A DNA stretch of 64,000 bases from Sneathiella aquimaris. Its GTDB lineage: Bacteria; Pseudomonadota; Alphaproteobacteria; Sneathiellales; Sneathiellaceae. Under the pieces are notes generated by a model. The model worked only from the letters and a program-made list of their open reading frames with translations. It was not told the DNA's origin and ran no database searches. The stretch lies in assembly GCF_026409565.1 (NCBI RefSeq), contig NZ_CP112881.1, positions 2,735,501-2,799,500 of the forward strand, written 5' to 3'. Position 1 is the stretch's first letter; every line of letters starts with the position of its first letter. Positions 9,996-47,147 of the stretch are shown in pieces. The position numbers were made by a program, and so were the translations under genes.

Positions 9996-10820
9996 TCAGG
10001 AATTATTTTGAGGAGGGGTCAAATCAGGGGCATCTTCAGCCTTCATGCCGACAACATGATATCCCGCATCCACATGATGGGTCTCCCCGGAGACACCGGA
10101 ACCAAGATCGCTCAGCAGGTAAAGAGCCGATCCCCCAACATCTTCAATGGTAACATTGCGCTTCAACGGCGCGTTATATTCGTTCCATTTCAGAATGTAG
10201 CGGAAATCACCAATACCAGAGGCCGCCAAAGTTTTAATGGGTCCCGCAGAGATCGCGTTTACCCGAATTTTATTGCGGCCCATTTCCATGGCAAGATACC
10301 GTACAGATGCTTCAAGTGCTGCCTTCGCAACGCCCATGACGTTATAATGCGGCACAACCCGTTCTGCGCCGTAATAGGTCAGCGTCACCATGCTGCCCCC
10401 TTCGGTCATAAGTCGGGCAGCGCGCTTGGCAACAGCCGTAAACGAGAAACACGAGATATCCATCGTCATCAAGAAGTTGTCGCGAGTGGTATCAGAATAA
10501 TTTCCGCGCAGCTGGGTTTTATCGGAATAGCCAATGGCATGGACCAGAAAATCAATCTTGCCCCATCTATCCTCAATTGCCTGAAACACACCATCCATCG
10601 AGGCGTCATCCGTCACATCACATTCAAGAACAAGGTCGGAACCGACACTTTCAGCCAACGGCTTCACTCTTTTTCCCAAAGCTTCGCCCTGATAGGTAAA
10701 AGCGATTTCCGCCCCATGATCACTCAGTGCTTTCGCAATTCCCCAGGCAAGAGATTTATCGTTTGCGACCCCCATGATCACACCCCGCTTTCCTGCCATT
10801 AGCCCCAATTGCTCAGTCAT
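9996..10820 (-). CDS. fabI: Enoyl-[acyl-carrier-protein] reductase (NADH) FabI
   Basis: Completes each round of fatty-acid elongation by reducing trans-2-enoyl-ACP. The frame is open further upstream, but the ATG at 10818-10820 gives MTEQLGLMAGKRGVIMGVA, the normal FabI N-terminus, and 274 residues, which is standard. Signatures are the atypical SDR nucleotide loop GVANDKSLAWGIA and the FabI Tyr-x6-Lys pattern in the TYYGAERVVPHYNVMGVAK region. It ends 29 bases before aroC. FabI is the triclosan/isoniazid-type target; no FabV or FabK alternative is present in the window. Confidence 0.95.
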   Translation of the reverse strand: MTEQLGLMAGKRGVIMGVANDKSLAWGIAKALSDHGAEIAFTYQGEALGKRVKPLAESVGSDLVLECDVTDDASMDGVFQAIEDRWGKIDFLVHAIGYSDKTQLRGNYSDTTRDNFLMTMDISCFSFTAVAKRAARLMTEGGSMVTLTYYGAERVVPHYNVMGVAKAALEASVRYLAMEMGRNKIRVNAISAGPIKTLAASGIGDFRYILKWNEYNAPLKRNVTIEDVGGSALYLLSDLGSGVSGETHHVDAGYHVVGMKAEDAPDLTPPQNNS

Positions 10821-41018: not shown

Positions 41019-41597
41019 ATGTCCGAAAAACAGAAACTTATAATCGGAATGACTGGCGCATCGGGGGCGATTTATGGAATTCGTCTGTTAGAGGCCTGTA
41101 AATTACTAAATATTGAGACCCATTTAGTCATAAGCAAGGCAGCGGAAATTACCCTCGTTCACGAAACCAAACGATCCGTTTCAGAGGTCCGGGCCTTGGC
41201 TGATGTCAGTTATAAATATGCAGATATCGGAGCCGCCATTGCGTCAGGATCTTTTCGGAATGCGGGTATGGTTATAGCCCCCTGTTCTGTACGGTCCATG
41301 TCAGAGATTGCCGCGGGAACAACCAGCAACTTGCTGACAAGAGCTGCTGATGTAATTCTGAAAGAACGCCGGCGTCTTATTCTAATGATACGAGAATCGC
41401 CCCTTCATTCAGGTCACCTGCGTCATCTGGCTGAATTGTCTGATCTGGGGGCAATTATTGCGCCGCCTGTTCCGGCCTTTTACACACACCCGAAAAATCT
41501 GGATGATTTGGTCAATCATACAATTGGAAGAACACTTGACCTGATGAATATTGACAATGATCTTGCTACCCGGTGGAACGGTCTCAAAAACGGTTAG
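41019..41597 (+). CDS. ubiX: Flavin prenyltransferase UbiX
   Basis: Makes prenylated FMN, the cofactor of UbiD-type decarboxylases in ubiquinone synthesis. The 192 residues show the start IIGMTGASGAIYGIRLLEAC, the FMN-binding GSFRNAGMVIAPCSVRSMSEIA, the prenyl-site ILKERRRLILMIRESPLHSGHLRHLAEL, and the C-terminal PPVPAFYTHPKNLDDLV. The partner ubiD is not in this window. COQ9 (45908) also points to ubiquinone synthesis. The stop overlaps the convergent TIGR02444 gene by four bases. Confidence 0.95.
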   Translation: MSEKQKLIIGMTGASGAIYGIRLLEACKLLNIETHLVISKAAEITLVHETKRSVSEVRALADVSYKYADIGAAIASGSFRNAGMVIAPCSVRSMSEIAAGTTSNLLTRAADVILKERRRLILMIRESPLHSGHLRHLAELSDLGAIIAPPVPAFYTHPKNLDDLVNHTIGRTLDLMNIDNDLATRWNGLKNG

Positions 41598-43533: not shown

Positions 43534-44037
43534 ATGGGTCAAGACGGCGCACCACTCGTCGGTATCATCATGGGCAGCCAGTCAGACTGGCCAATTATGA
43601 AACATGCCGCAGATACATTATCCACCCTTGGCATTCCCTATGAAGCCAAGATTGTCTCAGCGCATCGCACACCGGACCGGCTGGTGGATTATGCACAGTC
43701 AGCCAAATCCAAAGGACTTAAAGTTCTGATCGCGGGCGCAGGCGGCGCGGCGCACCTTCCCGGAATGGCTGCGTCAATGACCCCCTTGCCAGTACTCGGG
43801 GTTCCAGTTGAAAGCAAAGCCTTGAAAGGTATGGATAGCCTGCTCTCTATCGTTCAAATGCCAGGCGGCGTTCCTGTTGGAACCCTTGCGATTGGAAAAG
43901 CTGGTGCGATCAATGCCGCCCTGCTTGCCGGGCAAATTCTCGCGCTCGGCAATGAGGATATTGCACGCTCAATCGATATCTGGCGGTCCAAACAAACAGA
44001 TGCCGTCGCGTTAGAACCAACTGACATCCCTAAATAG
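43534..44037 (+). CDS. purE: N5-carboxyaminoimidazole ribonucleotide mutase
   Basis: Purine synthesis: converts N5-CAIR to CAIR. 167 residues, normal for the class I enzyme. Visible are [20 protein letters not shown], the catalytic His in [28 protein letters not shown] and [36 protein letters not shown]. purK follows after 9 bases; the two act in sequence. Confidence 0.97.
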
Positions 44038-44046
44038 GATATATTC

Positions 44047-45135
44047 ATGACCACTCTTGCTCCTGGACAAACGATCGGCATCCTCGGTGATGGACAATTA
44101 GGTCGGATGATGGCAATTGCTGCGGCCGAATTGGGGTTTAAAACCCACATTTTTGGGCAGGAAAAAAATAGTCCCGCGGCTCAGGTTGCCAATGCGAACA
44201 CAATTGCAGACTATACAGACAAAGTGGCTTTACGGAAATTTGCCTCCTCAGTCGATGTTGTAACGTTGGAGTTTGAAAATATTCCAACAGACACTCTGAA
44301 CTTTCTATCTCCTCTTATCCCAGTGCGGCCCGGCAGAAAGGTTCTTGAAATCACACAGGACCGTCATCTGGAAAAAAGTTTCGTTAATAGTCTGGGGGTA
44401 CCGACAGCCCCTTTCGCCAATGTTGAAAGCCTGGAAGAATTGCGTCAGGCAGTCGAGCGGATTGGAACGCCCGCAATTTTAAAAACGCGGCGGGATGGCT
44501 ATGACGGTAAAGGTCAGGTCAAAATAAATTCGGCAACCGAAATCGACAAAGCTTGGGAAACTCTGGGGGGAAAAGCATCCATTTTGGAAGGATTTGTTCC
44601 GTTCGAGCTTGAAATCTCAATTGTCGCTGCACGTGATATTCATGGAAATGTGGCAACCTACTGCCCCGTTGAAAACCGGCACAAAAACCACATTCTCGAT
44701 GTTACAATTGCACCTGCTAACATTTTATCCACTGTTTCAGAACACGCGACAGAGCTTGCCACCAAAATTGTGCAAAATCTGGATCTTGTCGGTTTGGTTG
44801 CCGTGGAAATGTTTGTCGCCAGAGATGGAGATGTTCTCGTAAACGAACTTGCTCCGCGCCCCCACAATTCGGGCCACTGGACGATAGAAGCCTGCACCAC
44901 ATCCCAGTTCCGCCAAAGTATTCGTGCAGCCGCGGGTCTGTCTCTGGGCGATCCCACGGCCCACTCCAATGCCTTGATGCGTAACCTGATCGGCGACGAT
45001 GCCGATCATTGGAACGACATTTTACAGCATCCCGAGATGAGCCTCCATCTTTATGGAAAAACGGAAAGCCGCCCCGGCCGAAAAATGGGCCATGTTACCC
45101 GGCTGTTCCCCTTAAATGTACCGCCAAAGGTTTAA
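44047..45135 (+). CDS. purK: 5-(carboxyamino)imidazole ribonucleotide synthase
   Basis: ATP-grasp enzyme that carboxylates AIR to N5-CAIR. The 362 residues begin with the pre-ATP-grasp fold TIGILGDGQLGRMMAIAAAELGFKTHIFG, continue with the ATP-grasp core KTRRDGYDGKGQ, EGFVPFELEISIVAARD, ALVAVEMFV-type segment and ELAPRPHNSGHWTIEAC. It is cotranscribed with purE. Its 3' end is 10 bases from the stop of the convergent halohydrin-dehalogenase-like gene. Confidence 0.97.
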   Translation: MTTLAPGQTIGILGDGQLGRMMAIAAAELGFKTHIFGQEKNSPAAQVANANTIADYTDKVALRKFASSVDVVTLEFENIPTDTLNFLSPLIPVRPGRKVLEITQDRHLEKSFVNSLGVPTAPFANVESLEELRQAVERIGTPAILKTRRDGYDGKGQVKINSATEIDKAWETLGGKASILEGFVPFELEISIVAARDIHGNVATYCPVENRHKNHILDVTIAPANILSTVSEHATELATKIVQNLDLVGLVAVEMFVARDGDVLVNELAPRPHNSGHWTIEACTTSQFRQSIRAAAGLSLGDPTAHSNALMRNLIGDDADHWNDILQHPEMSLHLYGKTESRPGRKMGHVTRLFPLNVPPKV

Positions 45136-45145
45136 ATCCTGGCGG

Positions 45146-45877
45146 CTATGCCCAGCCGCCGGCGAAATACAGAATCTGACCGGTAATAAAATCTGATTTG
45201 TCGGAGACAAGAAAAGCGAGATATTCACCCGCTTCTTCGGGCTTACCCAATCGGCCAATAGGGATGGGTTTAGTTATTTTCATTAATGTTTCAGGATTAC
45301 TCAGCAGTTCCTCAGGGAAGTAGGTCGGGCTTTCTACGAAATTCGGGGCCAGCGCGTTCACCTGAATACCAAATTTTCCCAACTCCTTGGCCAATGACAC
45401 CGCCAGACTATTGGCTCCGCCGCGCGCCGCGGTATACATTGAATAATTTGGCAAGCCATGTTTTGGCACTGCCGATGAAACAAAAACAATTTTACCTTTT
45501 CCTGCGGCCTTCATAACTTTTGACGCGTATTTGGCATAGGCAAAGCCGCGCACCAGCAAGGCATCCAGTGTTCTTCGAAAATCGTCAATATCTGCGTCAT
45601 CAATGGTTGCCTTGATCGCCGGATAGGCATCATTGTTGATCAAAGCATCCAAGCGTCCCTCGGCTTGAATAACAGCCGCGACAACGTCCTCGGGCTCCTG
45701 TTCGGCCAGCGCCTTCACACCCGGGATTAAGGCCTCGAACGCCTTGCGGGCGGTCGCATCCACAAAAGAAGCGTCCTGTGCGTAAAGTATCGCATGCTCA
45801 CGCATCAAAACCCGGCTCCCCGGAGTTCCTACAAAATGAGTCGCGTCTGTAATCAGGATAATTTTATTGCTTAGCAT
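45146..45877 (-). CDS. Halohydrin dehalogenase-like SDR-fold protein
   Basis: 243 residues. By fold this looks like a short-chain dehydrogenase, but the SDR motifs are altered in the way that defines halohydrin dehalogenases. The dinucleotide loop TGxxxGxG is replaced by TDATHFVG, fitting T-x4-F-x-G (Thr10, Phe15, Gly17), which holds the halide. The catalytic set is Ser135-x12-Tyr148-x3-Arg152 with Arg instead of the SDR Lys. The body also resembles HheC where I can recall it (AEQEPEDVV, YTAARGGANSLAVSLAKELG, GRLGKPEEAGEYLAFL, ITGQILYFAGGW). Such enzymes turn vicinal haloalcohols into epoxides and open epoxides with small anions. Convergent with purEK; COQ9 lies just upstream. Confidence 0.82.
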   Translation of the reverse strand: MLSNKIILITDATHFVGTPGSRVLMREHAILYAQDASFVDATARKAFEALIPGVKALAEQEPEDVVAAVIQAEGRLDALINNDAYPAIKATIDDADIDDFRRTLDALLVRGFAYAKYASKVMKAAGKGKIVFVSSAVPKHGLPNYSMYTAARGGANSLAVSLAKELGKFGIQVNALAPNFVESPTYFPEELLSNPETLMKITKPIPIGRLGKPEEAGEYLAFLVSDKSDFITGQILYFAGGWA

Positions 45878-45907: not shown

Positions 45908-46567
45908 TTATTTGGCTGTTAAATTTCGAAAGAAACGCCCCGGCCTTGGTATAAAAGAAAAATCAGGTTTGTTGGCGAGTTTTTGTTTGGTTTTGAATTT
46001 AAAAGTCTCAAACTGCATGACATTTTCGATACGGCGATCCAAAAATTCCCACGTCTTGTCATGCCCTTCAGACACATCATCCAACCAGTAAAGCAACGTA
46101 GCACTATAAACAGCAGAGAGGGTCAGTCGCTTTGTGTAATAACTGAAATCCGTTGATCGATCCCCCGTCGCGTACCACATCCGGCTGACGGTTTCGTTGG
46201 TCAGCGTCAACGCCAAAGCAGCATTTCGCGGCATGGCAAGCCACGTCAATGTTTTACGAACGCAGTCTTTTTCCTGCTCCACCAATTCCAATCGGGTTCT
46301 GACCGCCAGCGTAATCCTGTCGCGGATCTTCATTGAAAGAACATCCTTTGCCTGAAGCACCGCCTCCATCCGATCATCGGCACGGGTCACATAAAAGGTG
46401 ACAAGGTCTTTCAGGCCGCCCGGAAAAAGAAGATTAAAATCCAGATCATCCATCCCCAGATCAGCAGCGCCGCGCCGAACCGCCTTTTCTGACCAACCGT
46501 CAAACATCACATGATCTAAAACCGCATTCAGACATTTATCTTTTGTGATCTTTTGATCTGTCATCAC
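45908..46567 (-). CDS. COQ9 family protein
   Basis: Ubiquinone-synthesis accessory factor, a TetR-like fold that binds lipids. 219 residues with the family core LFPGGLKDLVTFYVTRADDRM and a C-terminal amphipathic region. In alphaproteobacteria the family was first noted as an rpsU-divergent gene; here rpsU lies 740 bases away, with def between. Its ATG overlaps the def stop region by 32 bases, so translation is coupled. Confidence 0.92.
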   Translation of the reverse strand: MMTDQKITKDKCLNAVLDHVMFDGWSEKAVRRGAADLGMDDLDFNLLFPGGLKDLVTFYVTRADDRMEAVLQAKDVLSMKIRDRITLAVRTRLELVEQEKDCVRKTLTWLAMPRNAALALTLTNETVSRMWYATGDRSTDFSYYTKRLTLSAVYSATLLYWLDDVSEGHDKTWEFLDRRIENVMQFETFKFKTKQKLANKPDFSFIPRPGRFFRNLTAK

Positions 46568-47147
46568 CTACTCCTTGGAATGATTGATCTTTTCCTTCGG
46601 TTAAGGAAAAGTGCTTGATAAATTCACCCATCTCATCTTCATACACCAGATTGCGGAGATCTGTCATGCGTTGAACATATAAAATACCATCCAGATGATC
46701 GCATTCATGTTGGACAACACGCGCATGAAACCCTTCAGCAAGGATGTCCTGCCTCTGCCCTTGAAGGTCAAATGCCCGATATCTCAATCTTGTATACCGG
46801 GGCACAAGACCCCGTAAACCCGGCACGGAAAGGCATCCTTCCCAGCCCAAGGATGTATCCACTCCCAAAGGCTCCAACTCTGGATTAATCAACACTCTTT
46901 GCGCAAACCCGTCACTGTCCGGACTACCATCCTCATTTTGAAGACGCGCCGCGGATATCCCAAAAATAACAAGGCGCAATGGAACACCGATCTGCGGGGC
47001 CGCCAAACCTATACCGCCGGCTTCTTTCAGACTTTCCTGCATCTGTTTAACGAGTTTACGAATCTCTGGCGCTGTTGGATCATCGATCTCCTCTGCGCGC
47101 TGTAATAAAACTGGATTTCCCATTTTCACGATTGGTTTTGCTGGCAT
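46536..47147 (-). CDS. def: Peptide deformylase
   Basis: Removes the formyl group from nascent chains. 203 residues with all three motifs: GGIGLAAPQIGVP (motif 1), WEGCLSVPGLRG (motif 2, metal Cys) and QHECDHLDGILY (motif 3, HExxH). Fe2+/Zn2+-dependent type with typical spacing. It is divergent from rpsU across 162 bases and cotranscribed with COQ9, which overlaps its 3' end. Confidence 0.96.
   Translation of the reverse strand: MPAKPIVKMGNPVLLQRAEEIDDPTAPEIRKLVKQMQESLKEAGGIGLAAPQIGVPLRLVIFGISAARLQNEDGSPDSDGFAQRVLINPELEPLGVDTSLGWEGCLSVPGLRGLVPRYTRLRYRAFDLQGQRQDILAEGFHARVVQHECDHLDGILYVQRMTDLRNLVYEDEMGEFIKHFSLTEGKDQSFQGVGDDRSKDHKR

Follow-up and report, generated by a model that had tools for sequence, protein, structure and literature searches.

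A candidate halohydrin dehalogenase conserved across the Sneathiella family, in whose genomes no EHN-domain epoxide hydrolase was found

The window, the whole 64,000-nucleotide stretch of Sneathiella aquimaris DNA analysed here, carries a candidate halohydrin dehalogenase (HHDH) gene at 45146..45877. The open reading frame, picked out earlier from the sequence alone, is borne out: it lies on the minus strand, starts with the ATG at 45877 and encodes 243 amino acids, which general libraries label only as an SDR. On the plus strand, purE (43534..44037; PF00731) is followed by purK (44047..45135; PF02222, PF17769), which is convergent with the HHDH gene and ends 10 nt away from it. Upstream of the HHDH gene, 30 nt from its start, lies a COQ9-domain gene (45908..46567, minus strand; PF08511). 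With their shared strand and this short gap, the two form a possible operon. Upstream of COQ9 is a peptide deformylase gene (46536..47147, minus strand; PF01327), the listed ORFs of the two overlapping. Pfam agrees with the sequence-only reading on purE, purK and COQ9 and adds the deformylase. That reading had seen no substrate clue in the neighbours. This holds at the locus, where none of the 10 Pfam-named neighbours is a dehalogenation gene, but the genome-wide co-occurrence of HHDHs with an epoxide hydrolase domain, and the absence of that domain from the family, do bear on the role (see below).

Two further genes in the window deserve mention. A Flavoprotein-family gene (PF02441; UbiX-like by eye) lies at 41019-41597 on the plus strand, and a PF02441 gene recurs near purE and purK in all but one of the 17 family loci examined, the exception being a short contig. 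Together with COQ9, it possibly marks a ubiquinone-related neighbourhood. Elsewhere in the window the HHDH has a single match, at 9999-10820 on the minus strand (23% identity, E 2e-6), which looks by eye like FabI, an enoyl-ACP reductase.

HHDHs are defined by two motifs, T-x4-[F/Y]-x-G and S-x12-Y-x3-R (available parts of PMC4989007 and PMC11976700). The window protein has both, as had been claimed. Motif 1 reads TDATHFVG (codons 10-17; 45827..45850, minus strand), with T10, F15 and G17 in place, and replaces the TGxxxGxG dinucleotide loop of SDRs. The classical cofactor pattern T-[G/A]-x3-[G/A]-x-G is not matched. Motif 2 spans codons 135-152 (45422..45475, minus strand; SAVPKHGLPNYSMYTAAR) and supplies a putative catalytic set of Ser135, Tyr148 and Arg152. 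Here the arginine stands where SDRs have lysine, and the classical set S-x10-14-Y-x3-K is not matched. All 21 full-length orthologues from the Sneathiella family have both motifs; a truncated 22nd keeps motif 2, which is therefore present in 22/22 family genomes carrying the gene.

The SDR-like proteins of the same genome look different. A search at E <= 1e-5 gave 30 places including the HHDH gene itself, which scores 525 bits against itself and is followed by a next place at 75 bits. Among the 17 of the other 29 places that were examined, neither HHDH motif occurs; TGxxxGxG is present in 15 and S..YxxxK in 14. At least one of these proteins (L020) seems to have a misassigned start codon, and the region of its motif 1 probably falls outside the examined sequence. 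The expectation that automatic annotation would call the gene an SDR proved right. Pfam returns adh_short and adh_short_C2 only. NCBIfam gives 208 matches, of which the top 25 are models for SDRs in general and fall short of their cut-offs; the first, glucose 1-dehydrogenase, would need 215 bits and reaches 123.

Comparison with solved structures places the protein among the HHDHs. The top ten by sequence comprise 6a41 (219 bits) and entries for HheC and HheA (137-155 bits), and the best-scoring ordinary SDR, a FabG, has 104 bits. NAD(P)-binding SDRs, named beforehand as the best hits that would count against the assignment, do not take first place. Identity is 45.0% to 6a41, 36.6% to HheC and 37.0% to HheA. 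The entry 6a41 is titled 'Dehalogenation enzyme' and its chain 'dehalogenase', and its status as a dehalogenase is taken here from that title alone. A tree of 58 rows was built by a quick method with SH-aLRT support only; its typed HHDH references are HheA and HheC, types B, D, E, F and G being absent from it. In this tree 43 HHDH-like rows, among them HheA, HheC and 6a41, stand on one side of a branch with support 100 and 15 SDR rows on the other. Bit scores are higher for HheA, HheA2 and HheC (146-151) than for HheD2 (7b73, 99.5) and AbHheG (8hqp, 77), which favours a place on the A/C side. With the glycine-rich loop and the catalytic lysine both gone, these rankings support the identity proposed by the sequence-only reading. 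That reading also saw likeness to HheC beyond the motifs, and it was right in part: AEQEP aligns with SEQEP of HheC within a near full-length alignment. KELG, GRLGKPEE and GGW occur in ordinary SDRs too and therefore carry little weight on their own.

Structure prediction contributed less. A first AlphaFold model, built with six close relatives (73-79% identity), had a mean pLDDT of 63.6, fell below 50 over much of the active site, and was set aside. In the second, a monomer, four ordinary SDRs were added to the alignment (three from the related-loci search and the FabI-like protein of the window), and pLDDT rose to 90.7 with a pTM of 0.89. The six best Foldseek rows for this model are 6a41 and HheC chains, with FabG seventh, and its TM to 6a41 is 0.94/0.93. 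VIA-align gave Z 35.8 for 6a41 (rmsd 1.9, 243 aligned), 33.2 for HheC (1.9, 240), 32.6 for FabG 4nbu (1.9, 234) and 31.4 for HheA (2.2, 240). Judged by this predicted model, the fold comparison does not discriminate HHDHs from FabG, 6a41 apart. Since the model fits both, it is no argument for or against a cofactor pocket.

At the halide site, by alignment, F12 of HheC corresponds to F15, P175-N176-Y177 to P178-N179-F180, and Y187 to F187 of the window protein, the last four lying in PNFVESPTYFP (codons 178-188; 45314..45346, minus strand). The part of PMC11976700 available describes the role of F12 at the halide site of HheC. The positions F15, P178, N179, F180 and F187 thus match their HheC counterparts, as judged by alignment only, and are kept across the Sneathiella family. 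P175, N176, Y177 and Y187 of HheC are, we assume, also halide-site residues, and ordinary SDRs usually have P-G at the position of the PN[FY] loop. S135, Y148, R152, P178, N179, F180, Y186 and F187 are invariant in 23/23 distinct family proteins, one of them truncated at the N-terminus. Among 41 other proteins of the Alphaproteobacteria (identical proteins counted once; L115 of G160, under the cut-off, left out), Y186 is kept in all 41, N179, Y148 and R152 in 38 each, and P178 in only 29; 6a41 carries Ser at the position equivalent to P178. The substrate pocket should differ. F136, W139 and L142 of HheC, which we take to be substrate-pocket residues, align with K139, L142 and Y145, so both the pocket and the substrate preference would be expected to depart from those of HheC.

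Some relatives in other Alphaproteobacteria depart from the motifs themselves. Tandem HHDH-like pairs occur in family f97 (L110:7783 and 8527 in G317; L111:8746 and 9412 in G228; L112:7863 and 8612 in G120), in genomes that measure 1.6-2.3 Mb. In each pair S-Y-R is intact in one copy, and the other has Gln for the catalytic Arg and has lost the aromatic residue of motif 1. From these residues, an active/inactive heteromer is possible. Three f40 relatives (L088:8288, L095:4579, L119:8807) have Trp for Phe/Tyr in motif 1 (T-x4-W-x-G) with an otherwise intact catalytic set, a variant that a search with the published motif would overlook. In L094 and L101 the Thr of motif 1 is replaced by Ser. L114:8092, L116:8720 and L117:7962 keep motif 1 and the Arg and have Ala or Pro in place of the catalytic Tyr, which leaves motif 2 unmatched; L116 has a Tyr three residues before this position.

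Within the Sneathiella family 22 of 25 genomes carry one copy of the gene, and a search at the level of the order gave the same 25. At 16 of 17 loci from two genera (two of the loci, L023 and L085, belong to one genome) the HHDH gene sits next to purK in convergent orientation; in the 17th (L084) the two are 2.1 kb apart. COQ9 lies directly upstream in 11 of the 17. Three genomes are without the gene. In G013 (65% complete), purK is present with about 8 kb of contig beyond it and no HHDH gene, so the gene seems dispensable. In G024 the contig runs 290 nt beyond purK and shows no HHDH gene either. In G020 purK was not found, which makes the absence in that genome uninformative. Across 55 pairs of 11 genes pN/pS is 0.10-0.35, with dS near saturation and saturated in 26 pairs, and the family HHDH is under purifying selection. 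The GC content of the gene is 0.50, against 0.48 for the window. Given the single copy in 22/25 genomes and the adjacency to purK, the gene is probably native to the family. In the gene tree, groups match the family codes for f4, f10, f66, f97 and f121; three of the four f40 rows group together, and two f16 rows pair (support 84), with a second copy from G171 elsewhere. L076, from the second genus of the Sneathiella family, is unplaced in the tree, so the case for descent within the family is made by synteny more than by the gene tree.

We conclude that this gene very probably encodes a cofactor-independent HHDH, one probably of the A/C branch, and that it belongs to the near-core chromosomal genes of the Sneathiella family. 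Its sequence makes it a previously undescribed member of a known enzyme family; a literature search of partial coverage found no paper joining halohydrin dehalogenases with Sneathiella. The statement that HHDHs are rare stands in part. A relative at E <= 1e-30 was found in 42 of 385 Alphaproteobacteria genomes, a cut-off that stays close to this branch and was applied to the seven best candidates per genome, so that B, D and G types were probably missed. Within this family the enzyme is anything but rare. Outside it the neighbours are heterogeneous. RecJ-, sirtuin-, YceI-, glyoxalase- and amylase-like genes, named by eye, recur in a few families, and no neighbour common to most of these loci was seen with our home-made gene caller, a codon-position model that in several loci skipped the HHDH gene or let another frame shadow it.

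Beyond the class, no HHDH relative was found on viral contigs, and one of 72,556 plasmid records, from Microbacterium sp. J1-1 of activated sludge, carries a relative at E <= 1e-30. This HheA-type gene, annotated as a haloalcohol dehalogenase, adjoins an epoxide hydrolase gene and glpK and has transposase genes on either side of it inside a 12.7-kb stretch, and the hydrolase carries the EHN domain (PF06441). The HheC gene likewise shares an operon with an epoxide hydrolase gene, according to the available part of PMC11976700. Because of these two pairings, we tested the co-occurrence of HHDH and EHN across the class. EHN is present in 88 of 385 genomes: in 29/42 with an HHDH and 59/343 without (odds ratio 10.7, p 1e-11). 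Counted by genus, which handles phylogenetic dependence only crudely, the figures are 19/25 and 38/251 (odds ratio 17.8, p 4e-10). P450, used as a lifestyle control and present in 128/385 genomes, has an odds ratio of 3.4 with HHDH. This link is gone within EHN-positive (1.5) and EHN-negative (0.3) genomes, neither value being significant, and the HHDH-EHN association stratified by P450 has a Mantel-Haenszel odds ratio of 15.2. Haloacid dehalogenase type II, considered as another partner, was rejected: present in 161 genomes of the class, it is not associated with HHDH there (odds ratio 1.4, p 0.32). No paper on genomic co-occurrence of HHDHs and epoxide hydrolases was found in a literature search of partial coverage.

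The Sneathiella family does not follow this pattern. Neither EHN nor LEH (PF07858) was found in any of its 25 genomes. The five Sneathiella genomes in the class sample gave no P450 match at E <= 1e-25. Haloacid dehalogenase type II exceeds its curated cut-off in 21 of the 25 family genomes and likewise in 158 of the 385 class genomes, and so hints weakly, at best, at organohalogen use.

The mechanism would follow that of HheC, reviewed in section 4 of PMC4989007, a source available in part. Ser135 would hold and position the substrate hydroxyl, and Tyr148, its pKa lowered by Arg152, would take the hydroxyl proton. The resulting alkoxide would displace the neighbouring halide to give an epoxide. 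The halide would leave into a pocket formed by Phe15, the Pro178-Asn179-Phe180 loop and Phe187, at the site that holds nicotinamide in SDRs. By the same analogy, the reaction should also run in reverse with other small anions. HHDHs are in demand as biocatalysts. Their natural function is assumed, being presumably the detoxification and degradation of haloalcohols (PMC11536340, in the part available), and the compounds tested with HheC are probably not its natural substrates (PMC11976700, likewise in part). The natural role here is probably turnover of small natural haloalcohols, not pollutant degradation. As no EHN hydrolase was found in the family, the epoxide may be passed to another hydrolase or another acceptor, or the enzyme may run in reverse. 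We tentatively propose that HHDHs of this branch in Alphaproteobacteria are the native first step of a haloalcohol/epoxide pathway, with an EHN hydrolase encoded elsewhere in the genome as the second, and that Sneathiella has kept its HHDH near-core without EHN for a different endogenous role, with another epoxide acceptor or with epoxide opening by a physiological anion. This is a possibility rather than an expectation.

A related explanation holds that the protein is an HHDH whose natural reaction is the opening of an endogenous epoxide by a physiological anion, or involves another leaving group, with dehalogenation incidental. The near-core status (22/25) in a family where EHN and LEH occur in 0/25 genomes fits this, as does the lack of a dehalogenation gene among the 10 named neighbours. 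HHDHs also accept several anions in ring opening (PMC4989007, available part). However, the halide-pocket residues are conserved, and the hydrolase search covered the EHN and LEH domains only. Haloacid dehalogenase type II in 21/25 genomes would suit organohalogen turnover, yet it is common across the class and unassociated with HHDH. We consider this explanation conceivable but doubtful.

Far less probable is an ordinary NAD(P)-dependent SDR whose cofactor loop has drifted. Such a protein would share the fold, and FabG nearly ties in the structure comparison; general libraries, too, match SDR models only. Against it, both the dinucleotide loop and the catalytic lysine are replaced in HHDH fashion in 21/21 full-length family orthologues. 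The tree and the ranking of PDB entries place the protein with HHDHs, and 0/17 examined SDRs of its own genome look alike. We regard this explanation as very improbable. A recently acquired pollutant-degradation gene, as on catabolic plasmids and as the transposase-flanked Microbacterium gene beside its EHN hydrolase and glpK might suggest, is the least credible reading of all and largely contradicted by a chromosomal, single-copy gene that adjoins purK in two genera, has a GC content close to that of the window and has a relative in one plasmid record only.

The reading we prefer, a near-core HHDH probably native to the Sneathiella family, matters for two reasons. A near-universal, single-copy HHDH gene away from recognisable degradation genes makes Sneathiella a genetic system for the question of the natural substrate. 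The association of HHDH with EHN makes a specific claim about the pathway that can be checked, and the Sneathiella family, without EHN, is the exception to be explained. Membership in the HHDHs would be unsurprising alone; the near-core status and the association with its family exception are the main message.

Among known systems, the HheD2 and HheG types belong to the same enzyme family (PMC4989007, available part) but have far lower similarity to the window protein. HheA and HheA2, known from Corynebacterium and Arthrobacter, a type that also takes in the Microbacterium plasmid gene, share both motifs, the PNF loop and PTYFP at 37% identity. The plasmid copy stands beside an EHN epoxide hydrolase gene with transposases nearby, whereas the window gene is chromosomal and lies beside purK and COQ9. 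HheC of Agrobacterium radiobacter AD1 shares both motifs, the SEQEP/AEQEP region and the PN[FY] loop (36.6% identity). It differs by a C-terminal extension with Trp249 (PMC4989007, available part), which the window protein does not have, and by the epoxide hydrolase operon of its gene (PMC11976700, available part). The nearest solved structure is 6a41, with 45% identity over 242 residues, both motifs and the C-terminal GGWA; it groups with the alphaproteobacterial family f66 in the tree and has S-N-Y where the window protein has P-N-F at 178-180.
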